A stretch of 64,000 nt of DNA from Gemmatimonadota bacterium (GTDB taxonomy: Bacteria > Gemmatimonadota > Gemmatimonadetes > Longimicrobiales > Gaopeijiaceae). The position numbers were made by a program, and so were the translations under genes. Position 1 is the first letter of the stretch; the number at the start of each line of letters is the position of its first letter. The notes beneath the pieces were generated by a model. It was not told where the DNA came from. It saw only the letters and a program-made list of their open reading frames with translations, and made no database searches. This document shows positions 4,121-29,410 of this stretch, piece by piece. The DNA lies in NCBI GenBank assembly GCA_029863645.1, contig JAOTVA010000001.1, positions 1-64,000 on the forward strand, written 5' to 3'.

Positions 4121-4798
4121 GTGAAGAAGGCACTCGCGATCCTAGCGGCACTCTGTCTCGTCTCGGCCGTCCCCGTCGCGGCTCAATCCGACGACATGAG
4201 TTTCTTCATCACCAGCGTCGGATCCCTCGACGGGGCCAACCTCGGCGGGCTCGCCGGCGCGGATCAGCTGTGTGAGGACCTCGCCTACGCCGTCGGCGCA
4301 GGGAACAAGGTTTGGCGCGCCTACCTGAGCCAGATGGCCAGGGGAGGCCAGCCGGCCGTGAACGCCCGCGACCGCATCGGCGCGGGTCCATGGGTCAATT
4401 ACTACGGTGACGTGATCGCGCAGGATGTGACCGCCCTGCACTCGCCTGCCGCGAACCTGTCCAAATCGTCGATCCTCACCGAAAGAGGTTCGGTGGTGAA
4501 CGGCCGGGGTGACACGCCGAACACGCACGACATCCTCACCGGTTCGAACCTCGACGGGACGGTGTATACCGGAGAAGGCGCGACGGCGTGCAACAATTGG
4601 ACGACCAACGGCGCGGGCAGCGCACGCGTGGGCCACTTCGACCGGACGGGCGGCGGTGAGAACCCGACGTCCTGGAACTCGGCCCACAACTCGAGCGGGT
4701 GCAGCCAGGCCAACCTCCGGGCCACGGGCGGAAACGGCTACTTCTTCTGCTTCTCGGCGGGCGATGATCCGGCGCAGCAGGAAGAGGAACAGCAGTAG
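4121..4798 (+). CDS. Secreted protein with 'NLGGLxGAD' C-type-lectin/DUF1554-like domain, copy 1
   Basis: GTG start after AGGAG; signal peptide MKKALAILAALCLVSAVPVAAQ; SFFITSVGSLDGANLGGLAGADQLCEDL, NARDRIGAGPW, VNGRGDTPNTHDILTGSN, NPTSWNSAH, SGCSQANLRATGGNGYFFCF. Confidence 0.8.
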   Translation: MKKALAILAALCLVSAVPVAAQSDDMSFFITSVGSLDGANLGGLAGADQLCEDLAYAVGAGNKVWRAYLSQMARGGQPAVNARDRIGAGPWVNYYGDVIAQDVTALHSPAANLSKSSILTERGSVVNGRGDTPNTHDILTGSNLDGTVYTGEGATACNNWTTNGAGSARVGHFDRTGGGENPTSWNSAHNSSGCSQANLRATGGNGYFFCFSAGDDPAQQEEEQQ

Positions 4799-8137: not shown

Positions 8138-9031
8138 GTGAGCACCTTCGACGATCAACTCGAGAAGATGAAGAACGACAGTGGTTTCATCGCTGCCTTG
8201 GATCAAAGCGGCGGGAGCACGCCCAAGGCCCTGAAGTCCTACGGCATCGGCGACGACGCGTGGTCCACCGAGGAGGAGATGTTCGACAGGGTTCACGAGA
8301 TGCGCACCCGCATCATCACGAGCCCGTCCTTCGACGGCGACCGCATCCTCGGGGCGATCCTCTTCGAGGGCACGATGGACCGCGCGATCGGAGGCGTCCC
8401 GACGGCCGAATATCTGTGGACGGTGAAGCGCGTCGTTCCCTTCCTCAAGGTCGACAAGGGCCTCGCCGACGTGGCGGACGGGGTCCAGCTCATGAAGCCA
8501 ATCCCCGGTTTGGACGATCTGCTCGCGCGGGCGCGTTCGAAGGGCGTGTTCGGGACCAAGATGCGTTCCGTCATCAAGCAGGCGAACGCCAAAGGCATCG
8601 CCGCCATCGTCGATCAGCAGTTCGAGGTCGGCAAGCAGATCTGGGCGCACGGGCTCGTCCCGATTCTCGAGCCCGAAATCGACATCCACTGCCCCGACAA
8701 AGCGAAGGCCGAGGCGCTGCTCGAGGCGGGAATCCGCGAGAAGCTGGACCAGCTCGGAGCCGATGACGTGGTCATGCTCAAGCTGACCCTGCCGGAAGCC
8801 GACAACCTGTACAAGGCGTGCCTCGAACACCCCCGCGTCGTCCGGGTCGTCGCCCTGTCCGGCGGGTACAGCCGGGACGAAGCGAACACCCGTCTCGCAC
8901 GCAATAATGGCGTCGTAGCGAGCTTTTCTCGCGCGCTGGTAGAGGGCTTGGTGGCGCAGCACTCGGACGAGGAATTCAACAATGGCCTCGACCGGGCGAT
9001 CGAGAGCATCTACCAAGCCTCGACGACCTAG
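8138..9031 (+). CDS. Class I fructose-bisphosphate aldolase
   Basis: [86 protein letters not shown]. Confidence 0.92.
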
Positions 9032-21681: not shown

Positions 21682-23385
21682 ATGAAGACCATCGGCTCCC
21701 AGCTCGCCGCAGTCACCACAGGCGTCAACCTACGACGCCAACTGGCTCCATTCCTGAAGTACCTCGCCTTCATGGTGGCGGTGGTCTTCCTCTATGGATG
21801 GCTGTTCCACGTGATCATGGCGTGGGAGGGGCAGGAGCATACGTGGTTCACCGGGATCTACTGGACGCTCACCGTCATGAGCACCCTAGGGTTCGGAGAC
21901 ATCACGTTCCACACGGATTTGGGCAGGGCGTTCAGCACGCTGGTCATGCTGACCGGGGTGATCATGATGCTCGTCATCCTGCCGTTCCTGTTCATCCGCC
22001 TTGTGTATGCCCCCTGGCTCGACCAACGGGCGCGCGACCGGGTCCGTGCGCTGCGGTCCGTACCCCCTCATGTGTCCGGCCACGTCTTGATCTGTGCGGA
22101 AGATCCCATTTCGAGGGGGCTCATCGTGAGGCTCGCGCTGGCGGGCGTCCCCGCCTACCTCATCGTGCCCGATCCCGACCGCGCGGTCTTCTTGCAGGAC
22201 GAGGGAGTACCCGTCGTCTGCGGCGAGGTCGACGCCGTCGAAACGTACCGGGCCGGCGGCGTCCAGAGGGCCAGACTCGTCCTGGCCAATTCTTCTGACA
22301 TGGAGAACTCGAACATCGTCCTAACCGTTCGAGAGCTTTCCGAAGACGTTCCCATCGCCGCTGTCGCGGAGGTCGAGGACTCGATCGACGTGCTGGAGCT
22401 CAGCGGAGCAACCCACGTCCTCCCGCTCAAGCAGCGGTTGGGTGAACACCTCGCCAACCGAGTGAGCGCGGGCAGTGCGCATGCCAACGTGATTGGTCAG
22501 TTTCACGATCTCCTGCTTGTCGAGTTCCCGGTGCACAACACGCCGTTGCAGAACCGGACCGTCCGAGACACGCGCCTTCGGGAGTTCACAGGGGTGACCG
22601 TAGTGGGCGTGTGGGAGCACGGCAGGCTCCTGCCAGTGCACCCCGACCTCGAGCTCTCGCCCATGTGCATTCCTGTGGCGATTGGTACGCAAGCTCAGAT
22701 CGACGAGCTGAACGAGATCCTGGTGATCTACGACGCGAACCCCAACCCGGTCCTGATCATCGGTGGGGGGAAGGTCGGACGCTCGGCGGCTCGAGCACTG
22801 AAACGACGGGGCGTTCCGGTCCACATCGTCGAGCGTAACCCCGCGCTCGAGGCCAAGATCACCGGAATTCCGGACAAGCTGTTCATCGGGGACGCCGCGG
22901 ACCGCCATGTGCTCGACGACGCAGGAATCGCGAACGCGCCGTCGATCCTCCTGACGACGCACGACGACGCGATGAACGTGTACCTGAGTGTCTATTGCCG
23001 CCGCCTCAATCCCGAAGCCCGCATCCTCACTCGGGTAACGCACGAACGAAATATCGAGGCCATCCAACGGGCGGGCTCGGACTTCGTCCTCAGCTACGCC
23101 GCCTTCGGGGTCCAGACCGTCGTTTCGATCGTGCGCGGACGCGAGCTCGTCGTGCTGGGAGAGGGCGTCAACCTCTTCTATATCCCTCTGCCAAAGTCGC
23201 TCGCCGACAAGACCTTGGCAGAGGCCGCCATCTCGGAGCGAACCGGATTGAACGTCATCGCGCTGCAGCAAGACGACGCAGTCCAAACAGACCTGAAGTC
23301 GGACCTCCGGCTACCCCGTGGCTGCGAGCTCGTCGTGCTAGGGAGCACTGAGCAACGCGAACGATTCAGGGAGACGTTCCACTAG
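21682..23385 (+). CDS. Potassium channel/TrkA-N (two RCK domains) protein
   Basis: Pore TVMSTLGFGDITFHTDLGRAFS; N-domains HVLICAEDPISRGLIVRLA and VLIIGGGKVGRSAARALKRRGVPVHIVER; C-terminal TrkA-C. Confidence 0.93.
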   Translation: MKTIGSQLAAVTTGVNLRRQLAPFLKYLAFMVAVVFLYGWLFHVIMAWEGQEHTWFTGIYWTLTVMSTLGFGDITFHTDLGRAFSTLVMLTGVIMMLVILPFLFIRLVYAPWLDQRARDRVRALRSVPPHVSGHVLICAEDPISRGLIVRLALAGVPAYLIVPDPDRAVFLQDEGVPVVCGEVDAVETYRAGGVQRARLVLANSSDMENSNIVLTVRELSEDVPIAAVAEVEDSIDVLELSGATHVLPLKQRLGEHLANRVSAGSAHANVIGQFHDLLLVEFPVHNTPLQNRTVRDTRLREFTGVTVVGVWEHGRLLPVHPDLELSPMCIPVAIGTQAQIDELNEILVIYDANPNPVLIIGGGKVGRSAARALKRRGVPVHIVERNPALEAKITGIPDKLFIGDAADRHVLDDAGIANAPSILLTTHDDAMNVYLSVYCRRLNPEARILTRVTHERNIEAIQRAGSDFVLSYAAFGVQTVVSIVRGRELVVLGEGVNLFYIPLPKSLADKTLAEAAISERTGLNVIALQQDDAVQTDLKSDLRLPRGCELVVLGSTEQRERFRETFH

Positions 23386-23501
23386 CCGTTCCCGCACGGT
23401 CGTCGATAGCCCGAGGGGCGGGTACCCCGCCCCCGGGCCAGCGAACATGAAGTCGCCCGGATCCCCCGCCCGCGCGTCGAGCGTGCAGACGGCGAGGAGC
23501 A

Positions 23502-23584
23502 TGCCGGGGGCGGGAGTCGAACCCGCACGCCCTTGCGGACAGCGGCTTTTGAGGCCGCCGCGTCTACCGTTCCGCCACCCCGGC
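23502..23584 (-). tRNA. tRNA-Leu (CAA)
   Basis: GCCGGGGTGGCGGAACGGTAGACGCGGCGGCCTCAAAAGCCGC...GCGGGTTCGACTCCCGCCCCCGGCA: 7-bp acceptor, anticodon stem GCGGC/GCCGC with loop CTCAAAA, long variable arm, T-arm GCGGG-TTCGACT-CCCGC. Confidence 0.93.
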
Positions 23585-23590
23585 TGGGTG
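23544..23590. repeat. 47-bp direct repeat, tRNA-side copy (att-like)
   Basis: GGCTTTTGAGGCCGCCGCGTCTACCGTTCCGCCACCCCGGCTGGGTG, identical to 25677-25723; covers the tRNA-Leu 5' half and anticodon loop. Confidence 0.9.
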
Positions 23591-23691
23591 TTACTGCTGT
23601 AAGGGTTTAGCCCCTGCGCTCCCTCTACCATCGTGCCCTCGGGTAACGTCCCGGGTAACGAACGGGTAGCGAGAAAGGCCGCCGCGTCATA

Positions 23692-23850
23692 CTAGGCACT
23701 CTCCGCTCGGCGCGCAGCCAGTTCCAGCAATTCGGTCCTGCGGTACTCCACAACCGGGCTCCGGTGCCGCACGTTCAGCAGGTGCCCGTAGGTCTTCTCA
23801 ATCAGGCTCAGCGACGAGTGACCCAGCACCTGCATCACCGTGTAGGGCTG
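23692..23850 (-). pseudogene. Tyrosine recombinase (integrase) C-terminal remnant
   Basis: VMQVLGHSSLSLIEKTYGHLL matches the LGHSS...TYxHL C-terminal active-site box; upstream codons of the track ORF (to 24072) do not look like integrase. Confidence 0.75.
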
Positions 23851-24025
23851 ACCGGTGCTCCATGGTTTGGCGCCGCTCGCGGGCATCCTCCGACACGGCC
23901 TGGGAAGGTTCGCCCGACTGAGGTCACCGCGTCGTTGCGGTAGCGTACAGTGCGGTGTTCCGTCCGCGCCCGCATTGGACCTGCCCGTAAGCGGCAATGT
24001 TCCACACGATCTTCGGAGGCTCGCC

Positions 24026-24913
24026 ATGATCCGGGAATCACGAATTGCGTGGGCGGCGGCGGCCGCCCTCACACTGCTGGCTACAGCCCCGGCTTCTGCT
24101 CAGAACGTCGAAGACGTGCTGGGTCGATACACGGGGGGGAACGCGGATGGGTTCCTCCAGCCACTCGCCGATGTGCTCGGTGCTTCTCTGGGCAGCGGTT
24201 GGGCTCGCTCGGCCGACATCCAGCCGGGTCTTCATATCCGACTGTCGGCGATCGCCGCAGGCGCACCGATCTCCGATAACGCCCGTACCTTCATGGGCAC
24301 GACCGAGTCCTTTTCACCAGTGACGACCATCGAAGCGCCCACGGTCTTCGGCTCCACCGAAACCGTTGCGGTCTCGGGCCAGGGCGGCACGACCTACCGT
24401 TTCCCCGGCGGCATCGATGCCACTCTGATGGGTACGGTGGCTCCACAGCTTACCGTCGGCAGCGTGGCCGGTACGGAAGCGATGGTTCGCTGGCTCTCCA
24501 TCGACATCGACGAGGACTTCGGAAGCGTGTCGCTGCTCGGTTTGGGCGTGCTCCACGACATCGACCAGTATCTGGGGCAGAGCCTGCCCGTCGAGCTGGC
24601 AGCGGGTGTCTACTGGCAGTCGTTCGACATCGGCGACGTCGTCCAGTCGTCCACGATCAGCGCGATGGTACACGCGAGCAAATCATTTAACGTGCTGACT
24701 GTGTTCGGGGGCCTCGGATACGAGACATCGTCTACGGACATCTCGTATACACCTGAGGGCGAGACGACTGTGATCGACGTCTCACTGGACGGGGCGAACT
24801 CCATCCGGGCCACCGGGGGAGTCGCACTCCGACTCTTCGTGGTCGGGGTCTTCGCCGACTACACGATCGCTTCGCAGAACACGTTCACCCTAGGCCTGGA
24901 GCTGGGACGATGA
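24026..24913 (+). CDS. Secreted/outer-membrane protein resembling DUF6588-type families
   Basis: Signal peptide ...AWAAAAALTLLATAPASAQ; amphipathic beta-like pattern ending FADYTIASQNTFTLGLELGR. Confidence 0.65.
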   Translation: MIRESRIAWAAAAALTLLATAPASAQNVEDVLGRYTGGNADGFLQPLADVLGASLGSGWARSADIQPGLHIRLSAIAAGAPISDNARTFMGTTESFSPVTTIEAPTVFGSTETVAVSGQGGTTYRFPGGIDATLMGTVAPQLTVGSVAGTEAMVRWLSIDIDEDFGSVSLLGLGVLHDIDQYLGQSLPVELAAGVYWQSFDIGDVVQSSTISAMVHASKSFNVLTVFGGLGYETSSTDISYTPEGETTVIDVSLDGANSIRATGGVALRLFVVGVFADYTIASQNTFTLGLELGR

Positions 24914-25551
24914 GCACCAATACGACCCGGATTCGCCGGCTCCGCTCGGCTGGGCGTCTCGTGACGTTTGCGGCCGCTGCGGTTGCGATGGGTGCATGCG
25001 ACGGCCGGTGGCTGTTCGCGACGGCCGAGTTCGATCGCACCTTCGACTTCACCTTCGACTCTAACAGCGGCCTGATCGAGACCGCATCCCTCACACGATC
25101 CGACGTTGAGGGCGATTTGGACATACCGGACGACGCACGCCTCGACTTCGTCGATATCCAGCGGGTGAGCTTGAGTCTGTCTCCCGGCACGGGAAATGAA
25201 TCGAGCGCGGCGACACTCAGGTTCGTCTATTTGGCGCAGGGCTTCTCCGGTGATGTCGACATCACCGTCACAGACATCGCGAGCGAGCCCATCGACGATC
25301 TGGTCGCGAGTGCGCTGCGCGCCGTTGAGGGAGACCTAAAGGCGATGCTCGAAAACGATCCGGGGGCGCCCGCCCAGGTCACGTTCGAAGGCCAGATCTC
25401 CAACGTCGCCCCGAGCGCGTCTCGACTTGTTCTCGACGCTACTCTCGAGGTCAAAATGACCGCCACGTATGCCACGTGTGTGGAGATCGGATTCTTGGGA
25501 TTCGGTGCGACTGCCGAGTGCATCTCGTCCGGGAGCCCCTTCGGTCCCTAG
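24910..25551 (+). CDS. Putative lipoprotein/exported protein
   Basis: Lipobox-like VTFAAAAVAMGACDGR; ATGA overlap with the upstream gene. Confidence 0.65.
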   Translation: MSTNTTRIRRLRSAGRLVTFAAAAVAMGACDGRWLFATAEFDRTFDFTFDSNSGLIETASLTRSDVEGDLDIPDDARLDFVDIQRVSLSLSPGTGNESSAATLRFVYLAQGFSGDVDITVTDIASEPIDDLVASALRAVEGDLKAMLENDPGAPAQVTFEGQISNVAPSASRLVLDATLEVKMTATYATCVEIGFLGFGATAECISSGSPFGP

Positions 25552-25676
25552 GCGCGAGGGTGCACCTCTGCGAGGTGGGCCCCGCGGGCGGGCCTGCCTC
25601 CCACCGCTGGCACGCGAGCGATCAGTCGACGTGGGCGAGTAACCGGGAGGCGGCGCCCTGGAGGAACCTGCGGCTA

Positions 25677-25723
25677 GGCTTTTGAGGCCGCCGCGTCTAC
25701 CGTTCCGCCACCCCGGCTGGGTG
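25677..25723. repeat. 47-bp direct repeat, distal copy (partial tRNA-Leu, att-like)
   Basis: Exact copy of 23544-23590; flanks differ on both sides. Confidence 0.9.
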
Positions 25724-25772
25724 ATCTAGCTGTGGATTATCGCTTCCGTGCCTTCGTCGAACCGCGTGGCAA

Positions 25773-28421
25773 TCAGACCCGATCGAGCCGCGCTCGCTCG
25801 CGGCGTCGTCGCTTCACGGGCCGCTGAGGAGGACGTTCTCTGAGCAGATGCTCCAAGTCGGTCGCGGGCATCGGGCGGGCGAACAGGAATCCCTGGACCT
25901 CATCGCACCCGAGCTCCACCAAGCGTTCGCGCTGCTGCTCGGTTTCAACGCCTTCACCAATGGACTCCAGGTTCATGGCTTGGCACATCATGATCACTGC
26001 TGTGGTGATCGAGAGCGCCTCAGCGTTGGTGGCTAGATCCTGGATGAACGACCGGTCGATCTTCACAGCGTCGAGAGGAAGCTGGCGGACGTAGCTCAAG
26101 GAAGAGTAGCCGGTCCCGAAGTCATCGAGCGCGATCCTGAAGCCGTGATCCGACAATCGGCCGAGTAGGCCCAGCGCTTCCTCGGGATTTCGGATGACGG
26201 CGCTCTCGGTCACCTCAAATTCGATCAACGTCGGATCGACCTCGGCGGTGAGGTCGAGAATGCGCTCCACGATGCCTGGCAAGAGCTGCTGCGGCGACAC
26301 GTTGACCGAGACGCGGAGATTCTTCAGTGCGAGCGATCGCCACCTGAGGAGGTCAGCCACAGTCGCTTGCAGGCACCAGTCGCCCAGGAGCTGGATCAGG
26401 CCCACGTCTTCGGCAATGGGAACGAACTCCCCCGGGGACACCGGACCCAGCTCGTCGCTAGTCCACCGGACCAGAGCCTCTACGGCGACGACCGTCCCTG
26501 ACTCTGGTCGGACGCGGGGCTGGTAATGCATCTCCAGCTCACCACGTTCGATTGCGCGACGCAGAAGACTGGCCACGCGGAGCCGCCGAGCCTCCCGCTC
26601 GTGGATCGCCTCATCATAGAAGTGATATGGATCGGGGATCGATCGGCCGGCTTGGAGTGCGGCCTTCCCAGATCGCAGGAGCGCGTCGACCGTGGTCGCG
26701 TCGTCGGGGAAGACACTGATGCCGATCGAAGTCGACACGGATATCTCGCGACCGTCGATTAGGTAAGGCTCTTCGATCGCACGGGCGACCGACTCGGCGA
26801 GGGACGCGGCCTCGTCCCGGCTCATGACCGAATCGATCGCCGCGAACTCGTCGTTGCCAAAGCGCACGGCGGAGTAGGAGCTCGGATCGCGCCTCCTTCG
26901 TCGATCAGGACGCCTTGGCACACCCAGCGTAGCGACCAACCTCCGCGCAACCTCGATCAGCACCTCGTCAGCGACCTGGTGCCCCAAGGCGCCCTCGACG
27001 CTCGCGAACCCCTCGAGTCCGATGAGTAGCACGGCCAACGCCGACTCCTCTCGCTCCGCCTGCTTGAGCTGTACGCCGAGGCGCTCGAGGAGGTACTGCC
27101 GGTTACCCAGTCCAGTCACTGAATCGTGCAAAGAGAGATACTGGATCTGACGCGCGGAATTCCATCGCTCCGTAACGTCTTGGGCAGAGGCCTCGACCCG
27201 CGCCGGATCATCGCCAGACCGACGATGCTGTCCGCGGAGGTGCAGGATCCTGTCCGTACCATCGTGGAGGGGTACGCGCACGTCCGCACGAAAAGCACCG
27301 TTGCGGGCGCGGACGCGTTCCATGCCACTGATCAACTTGCTACGATCGTCGGGGTGGATCTTCCCGAGCACGTCGTCGACTCCGATGTGACTCGCCCGTT
27401 CGAGCTCGAATAGCCGTCGAAAGTCGGTTCCGGCATCGATTGCGGTCGTCTCCAGGTCGAACGACCAGTTTGTGAAACGCGCGAGGCGCTGAGCCCGGAC
27501 CAATCGGGCATCACTGTCCTTCAGTCGGGCCAGCATGCCGCCGAACGCGCGGCTGAGGTCGCCCAACTCATCGTGCCGGTCAACGGCGAAGTGGACGTCC
27601 AGTGAGTCCTCGCCGACGCGTTCGGCCGCGCGCTTCATCTCCTTGATGGGCCCGGCGAAGCTATGCGCCAGAAATGTGCCGGTTAGAACCGCCAGCAGGA
27701 GTGCCGCCAACCCGGCGAAGACCAGATTCCGCCGCGCACGGGAAATCGCCCGCTGCTCAGTCTCATAGGTGGTCGACACCTGGACGTTCGCTCCGGCGAA
27801 TGCCCGTACGACGGAAACGAGCGTGTCGGAGGACAGGGGCTCGGTGACGCCGAAAGTGGCGCGTACGCCCAGCACATCCGACCACCCTTCGAGGATGTCC
27901 GCACCCACCGGCTCGACCGCCACGAGGTATCCGACGAGGTCGTCGCCCGTACGCAGTGGGATTGCGGCCGCCGCGTAGAGGATCTCGCGGGCCGCGATGT
28001 ATGTGGGAGCGCTGACAAGCACCCGCTCAGCGGCGAGCCGCTCGAGTTCTTCGTCGCCTGCCAACGCGACGAGCTCACCCTCCGGTGACCGGAATGCCAC
28101 GGCTGATGAGCCTTGACGCTCGACGAGGCTCTCGGCGTGGTAGGCGAGCGTCCGGCGATCGCCGGCCTCGAGGTTCGCGCGAAACTCCGGGGTGGTGCTG
28201 ATCGCGACGTAACGTGCGGCCATGGCCGCCTGGTGATCGTCCATCAGGCGGTCGGCCGCCACTGCGGCTCGAGTCAGGCGATCGTTTGCGGCTTCGCGAA
28301 GATCGGCGCTGAGCGTACGATCTTGAATGACGAGAGCGAGGATCGTAGAAATGGCCGCAAGGCCGCCCATCAGCACGATGAGCTGGGCAAAGACGCCGAA
28401 CCGGACCTTCGGTACCGTCAC
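25773..28421 (-). CDS. Composite GGDEF/EAL protein with extracytoplasmic sensor, HAMP and PAS
   Basis: HAMP-like SFAGPIKEMKRAAERVGEDSLDV; GGDEF-type RFGNDEFAAID; EAL motifs VEALVRW, VNVSPQQ, DDFGTGYSSLSYVRQLPLDAVKIDRSFIQDL. Confidence 0.93.
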   Translation of the reverse strand: MTVPKVRFGVFAQLIVLMGGLAAISTILALVIQDRTLSADLREAANDRLTRAAVAADRLMDDHQAAMAARYVAISTTPEFRANLEAGDRRTLAYHAESLVERQGSSAVAFRSPEGELVALAGDEELERLAAERVLVSAPTYIAAREILYAAAAIPLRTGDDLVGYLVAVEPVGADILEGWSDVLGVRATFGVTEPLSSDTLVSVVRAFAGANVQVSTTYETEQRAISRARRNLVFAGLAALLLAVLTGTFLAHSFAGPIKEMKRAAERVGEDSLDVHFAVDRHDELGDLSRAFGGMLARLKDSDARLVRAQRLARFTNWSFDLETTAIDAGTDFRRLFELERASHIGVDDVLGKIHPDDRSKLISGMERVRARNGAFRADVRVPLHDGTDRILHLRGQHRRSGDDPARVEASAQDVTERWNSARQIQYLSLHDSVTGLGNRQYLLERLGVQLKQAEREESALAVLLIGLEGFASVEGALGHQVADEVLIEVARRLVATLGVPRRPDRRRRRDPSSYSAVRFGNDEFAAIDSVMSRDEAASLAESVARAIEEPYLIDGREISVSTSIGISVFPDDATTVDALLRSGKAALQAGRSIPDPYHFYDEAIHEREARRLRVASLLRRAIERGELEMHYQPRVRPESGTVVAVEALVRWTSDELGPVSPGEFVPIAEDVGLIQLLGDWCLQATVADLLRWRSLALKNLRVSVNVSPQQLLPGIVERILDLTAEVDPTLIEFEVTESAVIRNPEEALGLLGRLSDHGFRIALDDFGTGYSSLSYVRQLPLDAVKIDRSFIQDLATNAEALSITTAVIMMCQAMNLESIGEGVETEQQRERLVELGCDEVQGFLFARPMPATDLEHLLRERPPQRPVKRRRRERARLDRV

Positions 28422-29116
28422 CGGCGGATCAGGTCAGGGTCGAGCCAGATGGTCTCGACCGAGGAGCCACCCGATGTCACTTCCAACGTGCGCACGGGAC
28501 CCTGCAACCTCGGGCTCCAGATCGAAAGCCGGTATGAGCCGTCCGAGAGCGGTCCCACGTAGTATCGGCGCCTCTCGTCCAGCACTGAGAAGAAGACTCC
28601 GGTCGTCGCGAGAATCGTGAAGTTTTCATCCGGGTGTAAGGAGCAGAAGAACTGCACCTCGCCGGTGTAGTTAATCTGCTGCGGTGCCGAAGAATCTCCC
28701 GGGCCCACCGGGATCTGGAGGTCCGGGCCGAGGTCGGCCGAGAAGAGGCGATGGCTCACGGCTCCTTCGTTCGCGAAAACGATGAAGTCACCATCGCCTA
28801 TGGCCACGAAGCCCGGATCGAAGTTGTCGGTACCCGAGGTGACGCGAAACTGCTGCGTCGGCCGGGTCCGTGCCTTTGTAGGATCGACCGGCTCCAACAT
28901 CACGACCACGGGTCCGATTGCGGTGTCGGGGGCCTGGCGCTCCAGGAACTGCAGGGTGCCGGTAACGGCTCCTGTGGGTAGAGTGGCGCCGGACCGCGCG
29001 CACGCAGCAACCGCGATAGTGACGATCAGTGTCGCCAGGCGGATCCGACCCCGACCCGCGTCTATGGGTTTCCGGCTCATATGCCTCGATGGCCATGTCA
29101 GGGGTGGACATCCCAC
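28418..29116 (-). CDS. Exported cupredoxin-like protein
   Basis: VFANEGAVSHRLFSADLG...INYTGEVQFFCSLHPDENFTILAT (plastocyanin-like H...C..H); GTGA overlap with the GGDEF/EAL gene. Confidence 0.72.
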   Translation of the reverse strand: MGCPPLTWPSRHMSRKPIDAGRGRIRLATLIVTIAVAACARSGATLPTGAVTGTLQFLERQAPDTAIGPVVVMLEPVDPTKARTRPTQQFRVTSGTDNFDPGFVAIGDGDFIVFANEGAVSHRLFSADLGPDLQIPVGPGDSSAPQQINYTGEVQFFCSLHPDENFTILATTGVFFSVLDERRRYYVGPLSDGSYRLSIWSPRLQGPVRTLEVTSGGSSVETIWLDPDLIRR

Positions 29117-29410
29117 GCTTTAGCGAGGTGGCGGGCACCCCTAACGCCACATTCAAGACTGCTACGGCGTAGGTGGAGTAGCAAGCATTTCAGCTGCGCC
29201 CGCATCCCGGCAGCGGTTCCACTCTAGAGACTCGCTCGCGGGTCTTCTGAGGCCGCCGCCCCGGACCCCGGAATCTCCCCACCGATTCACGTGGCGTTCC
29301 CCTGACAGCCCTCCCCGGCATCCATCGGTAACGTGTGAGACCAGGCGCCTCAGCTCACCTACGTGGCTGGGGCCATGAACACGAGGGCGACCTCGTGCGG
29401 AGATCTGACG

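Follow-up and report, generated by a model that had tools for sequence, protein, structure and literature searches.

A decayed tyrosine-integrase element at tRNA-Leu(CAA) in a Gemmatimonadota bacterium: probable replacement of the 5' half of a tRNA gene

Background

How does a tRNA gene come to have a second copy of its 5' half, without its 3' half, some 2 kb away? The question is raised by the tRNA-Leu(CAA) gene in a 64-kb stretch of the genome of a Gemmatimonadota bacterium. The whole stretch is referred to here as the window, and the genome containing it as G000. An earlier note on the window described the locus as a mini genomic island bounded by an exact 47-bp repeat, and pointed out that this repeat comes from the 5' half of the tRNA gene in place of the usual 3' half.

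Use of the 5' half is indeed rare, although it has already been described. In Islander 159 of 3919 islands (approximately 4%) carry a 5' fragment, versus 3760 that carry a 3' fragment (PMC4383910). In S. meliloti 5'-half use amounts to 9 of 88 (PMC11476347). In Archaea, pTN3 employs 41 bp from the 5' half of tRNA-Leu(CAA), and the tRNA is thereby parted from its promoter (PMC5495485, PMC8371274).

Here we describe the locus as, very probably, the remains of a decayed tyrosine-integrase element whose attP carried the tRNA 5' half. On inserting into tRNA-Leu(CAA) at its anticodon loop, the element would have displaced the native 5' half. The locus provides a well-resolved bacterial case of the rare 5'-half mode, with insertion-free relatives, probable tandem insertions and a probable attP in a free phage.

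Results and discussion

The repeat and the tRNA gene

The intact tRNA-Leu(CAA) gene, which would be a reconstituted one, lies at 23502-23584 on the minus strand (ARAGORN; Rfam RF00005, 58.6 bits), and its locus, beside citrate synthase, is conserved in the family. The proximal copy of the repeat (23544-23590, minus strand) is a putative att site. Read on the tRNA strand, it consists of the 6-bp flank CACCCA followed by tRNA positions 1-41, and it ends in the stem 3 nt beyond the anticodon loop. The distal copy (25677-25723, minus strand), with the same tRNA half and the same 6-bp flank, is identical to the proximal one over all 47 bp. The exact repeat reported earlier is thus real. A search of the 3.9-Mb assembly that tolerated up to 3 mismatches gave only these two copies of the 47-mer, and chance cannot account for a 47-bp exact match within 2.1 kb. 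On the flank side the similarity of the two copies extends to 57 bp at 93%. The shared CACCCA and this further similarity mean that the repeated block is not limited to the tRNA.

Rfam recognises a single tRNA in 23300-25900 and gives no tRNA match to the distal copy. Over the 60 bases past the distal half, the resemblance to the tRNA 3' half does not exceed that of shuffled sequence (p = 0.30). The distal copy is therefore taken to be a displaced half and not a decayed second tRNA gene. A complete tRNA gene stands at one end and a fragment of the same orientation at the other, which is the arrangement of a tDNA island. The fragment conforms to the anticodon-centred 5'-fragment kind, being an upstream 5' half with its limit at the anticodon loop, and this holds in five genomes. 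The distal flank, TCACCCA, resembles the native flank of two relatives of the same genus (G001 and G002). This makes the polarity of the event likely but does not prove it, because the proximal copy also ends in CACCCA. With this polarity, positions 23544-23584 of the tRNA gene would come from the element.

The integrase remnant and the contents of the island

Outward from the 5' end of the tRNA the order is approximately 50 bp of flank, arm-like repeats, an integrase tail, a DUF6588 gene, a lipoprotein gene and the distal half. The tail (23692-23850, minus strand) reads toward the tRNA 5' end, and part of it carries LGHSSLSLIEKTYGHL. It is the C-terminal remnant of a tyrosine integrase, holding only the last ~50 codons (about 23695-23847); the remainder of its 126-aa ORF is not integrase. 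The remnant is 76% identical to the tail in G003 and 69% to a query based on G024, and by itself it gave no match in Pfam, NCBIfam or PHROG. Of the catalytic set R, H-x-x-R, H and Y the window copy retains only LGH...Y. A near-full copy in G034 has an upstream stop and retains R, HTFRHT, GH and Y; it is 59% identical to a full-length relative on viral contig L236, which matches PF00589 (E 2.4e-16). Since the integrase of the window is truncated, the relic cannot move by itself, and excision or a circular form is neither expected nor seen. The integrase remnant of the earlier note is therefore real, and so probably is the insertion behind its mini genomic island, but what remains is a relic that has lost its mobility, not a functional island.

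Between the tail and the tRNA are the direct repeats CTACCCG, GTTACCC and GTTACCC (23641-23670, minus strand), which resemble a P' arm and are putative integrase arm sites. The GTTACCC pair is the sole one of its kind in the 64-kb window, with 0 in 100 shuffles, and the proximal repeats are conserved in G003, G024 and G077. At its distal end the island in the window lacks the paired arm repeats that are present at the distal ends of other genomes. Putative arm-type sites are thus found on the P' side only in the window and on both sides in G024, G033, G034 and G077. Because these paired repeats are missing, the distal end of the island is considered either eroded or differently formed.

The stretch between the arm-like repeats and the proximal repeat (23591-23640, minus strand) is matched in position, by alignment, to the TAAGTT and TTAGATT motifs of G003, G034 and G077. 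It may represent an element-borne 5' flank of the tRNA and a putative promoter region. A scan for sigma-70 promoters upstream of tRNA-Leu(CAA) returned none.

The two exported-protein genes noted earlier between the copies are real ORFs. The first (24026-24913, plus strand) encodes an exported DUF6588 (PF20230) protein with a family match of E 6e-48. The second (24910-25551, plus strand) encodes a putative lipoprotein with a lipobox, for which the family search gave no match. Neither gene has a DNA-level match in four genomes of the same genus, and the DUF6588 homologs within the family are at most 37% identical; both are accordingly regarded as accessory, and they would have been cargo of the element.

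The same locus in relatives

The tRNA-Leu(CAA)-citrate synthase locus is conserved across the family. Genes for citrate synthase and for an M1-type peptidase are close to the tRNA gene in G001-G004 and, in other genera, in G009, G010, G012, G022, G024 and G077, and on these neighbours the loci were taken as orthologous. Three genomes of the same genus (G001, G002 and G004) have a single 5' half next to citrate synthase, with no integrase tail and no island. These are the empty sites that the earlier note had proposed to look for. The tail is likewise absent before tRNA-Leu(CAA) in G009, G010, G012 and G022. The alternative of a stable core locus failed, as the island is core DNA in no relative examined. 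The same integrase tail and arm repeats are found at the locus in G003, of the same genus, and in G024 and G077, of another.

The nearest relative by TrkA is G001 (81% identical). It has a single copy of the repeat, and its next conserved gene upstream is an ACT-domain gene, which is located at 29363 in the window. As an empty site, G001 is not entirely clean, because it also differs from G000 by a block beyond the island. The EAL/GGDEF and cupredoxin-like genes beside the island (window 25773-29116) are relocated in G001 (G001:C75, 74% DNA identity), so that in one lineage a second rearrangement parts the tRNA from the ACT-domain gene. A further TrkA/ion-channel protein is encoded in G000 itself (G000:C22:17332-19029), 67% identical to the one at 21682-23385 of the window.

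Displaced 5' halves and a phage attP

The search for the repeat beside other integrases, which had also been proposed, showed that in other genomes, too, the 5' half stands next to relatives of this integrase. A second 5' half, which begins at tRNA position 1 and extends through the anticodon loop plus 0-3 nt, is present in G000, G024, G033, G034 and G077, with the displaced half and the tRNA on separate contigs in the last four. A weak match to the 5' half was found in G029. The distance from the integrase C-terminus to the tRNA 5' end is 96-112 bp where measured directly (G000, G077, G033 and G034), and the tail and tRNA have the same layout in G003 and G024. Arm-like repeats are found on the integrase side in all six of these genomes. 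Paired repeats that resemble them lie ~110 bp past the displaced half in G024, G077, G033 and both G034 copies. The sequence of the arm repeats varies with the type of integrase (GTTACCC, GTCACC or GTTACCG). To judge from their sequence, the integrase-side and distal repeats around the displaced halves have the layout of a putative lambda-like attP with two arms.

In G024:C49 a second integrase tail is followed by arms, a lone 5' half and the next arms, an order that probably reflects two insertions in tandem. Two tRNA-Leu 5' halves of the same orientation lie 10.5 kb apart in G034:C37 (L166 5949 and 16486). Both have similar upstream flanks and paired arm repeats, and no tRNA was found in the stretch; the pair is probably a tandem array of old insertions.

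Three viral contigs of one phage (L237-L239) carry an identical 41-bp 5' half of tRNA-Leu(CAA) directly after the integrase gene (L237 4718-4750, L238 4680-4712, L239 12026-12058). Their integrase belongs to PHROG_1 and has no detectable similarity to the window-type integrase represented by the L236 relative. On its sequence and position, this half is probably an attP of the predicted form beside a different integrase.

Proposed mechanism and alternatives

The proposed mobile element, whose tyrosine integrase would be of the PF00589/PHROG_1 type, would have recombined with tRNA-Leu(CAA) at the anticodon loop. Its attP, situated beside the 3' end of the integrase gene, would have consisted of this tRNA's 5' half and upstream DNA. 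A crossover in the anticodon loop would have joined the 5' half of the element to the chromosomal 3' half, giving the intact tRNA at 23502-23584. The native 5' half, with its native upstream flank, would have been displaced to the far end at 25677-25723, 2 kb away. Most of the integrase gene and the distal arm repeats would since have been lost by decay, leaving 2.1 kb with two accessory genes. This reading is built on the repeat and its limits, the integrase tail, the proximal arm repeats, the insertion-free relatives and the same geometry in other genomes. It also implies that the tRNA may now be transcribed from an element-derived flank. Should that flank drive transcription of the tRNA, the gene would owe its promoter to a dead mobile element, and such a donation, if true, would explain why just the integrase tail, arms and flank have survived in four genomes.

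A tandem duplication of tRNA-Leu, with one copy decayed and unrelated genes between, would likewise set a half-gene copy beside a whole one, and the similarity of the flanks past the tRNA (57 bp at 93%) would suit it. This candidate, which the earlier note had named as a decayed second tRNA-Leu gene, was rejected. It is contradicted by the lack of similarity to the 3' half after the distal copy (p = 0.30) and by the one tRNA that Rfam finds. Moreover, the distal copy keeps 41 tRNA bases without a mismatch and nothing of the remainder, the break falls at the anticodon loop in five genomes and the integrase tail adjoins the repeat, all of which render a duplication extremely improbable. An assembly artefact, with two assembly pieces joined at the repeat, has to be considered for G000, whose assembly is fragmented (269 contigs, 85.8% complete), and repeats are typical break points. 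However, the GC content, which does not set the island apart, is uniform over the junctions, and in G001, as well, the ACT-domain gene (past the island in the window) lies close to the citrate synthase and TrkA genes (before it in the window). A false join is in our judgement highly improbable.

The insertion could instead have been made by a different 5'-half integrase, like that of phage L237-L239, at a locus that already held the integrase tail of an older event. An unrelated phage integrase bears exactly this attP half, tandem events seem to occur at the locus (G024), and the distal end of the island is without paired arm repeats. Yet the tRNA side is directly occupied by the integrase tail and the GTTACCC arms, which is what the maker of the current junction would be expected to leave, and the phage integrase has left no trace in G000. 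We consider such a succession of events unlikely, and prefer insertion of the element to which the tail belonged.

Comparison with known systems

Like the 5'-fragment islands of Islander (PMC4383910), the island in the window has a whole tRNA at one end and a same-orientation 5' fragment upstream with its limit at the anticodon loop; a tyrosine integrase, in the window a remnant, and probable tandem arrays are further common features. It differs in that the element is decayed and the integrase is a C-terminal tail only, for which reason the island would probably fail the integrase filter of the Islander pipeline. The pTN3-type integrases of Thermococcus (PMC5495485, PMC8371274) have in common with it the tRNA-Leu (CAA) target, 41 shared bp, the restored 5' half and a tRNA separated from its original promoter. 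They are archaeal and suicidal (integration disrupts the integrase gene), whereas in the window the attP would lie outside the integrase gene and arm-type repeats flank the site. Phage Omega also has a tyrosine integrase and a tRNA-Leu-CAA target, with a 44-bp core (PMC10865867). It acts in the canonical 3'-half mode, restoring the 3' half and keeping the host promoter, in contrast to the window where the 5' half and flank would come from the element. With 5'-half use known from Islander, S. meliloti and pTN3, the element in the window is regarded as a decayed member of a known minority kind.

Which tRNA half the integrase family restores

The less usual feature is that the attP carries either tRNA half within one integrase clade. 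Integrases of this family adjoin tRNA genes in both orientations. In a tree of 32 sampled members, with many rows short and most forks unresolved, 14 point toward the tRNA 5' end and 18 toward the 3' end, with ~5 orientation changes. Close relatives are opposed at tRNA-Leu, where the integrase of G034 reads into the 5' end and that of G313 faces the 3' end. Viral contig L236 carries, in reverse, a tRNA-Leu 3' half that begins at the anticodon loop.

A sample of the order had suggested that tRNA-Leu members are always of the 5' type and those at other isotypes of the 3' type. This rule was broken by a wider sample, in which integrases at tRNAs for Thr, Arg, Gly and Ile point to the 5' end and one at a Leu tRNA faces the 3' end. 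Only tRNA-Leu yielded displaced halves; none turned up for the non-Leu 5' cases in the stretches examined, so that the latter are read from adjacency. By adjacency, the 5' mode would seem to be common in the phylum.

It is possible, and we propose it tentatively, that in Gemmatimonadota one integrase family repeatedly switches between the 3' and the 5' half that it restores, with 5' use far above the 4% of Islander (159/3919). Repeated half-switching and frequent 5' use would mean that elements repeatedly swap the promoter of tRNA genes. If this is true, a decayed remnant would be retained as the promoter carrier of its tRNA gene. A clade that mixes 5' and 3' use makes the change of restored half by an integrase a directly testable question.

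A different arrangement was observed in L133 (G022:C37), where two complete tRNA-Gly(CCC) genes (4710-4783 and 8247-8320), 3.5 kb apart, enclose an integrase fragment. This may be an island bearing a complete copy of the tRNA.
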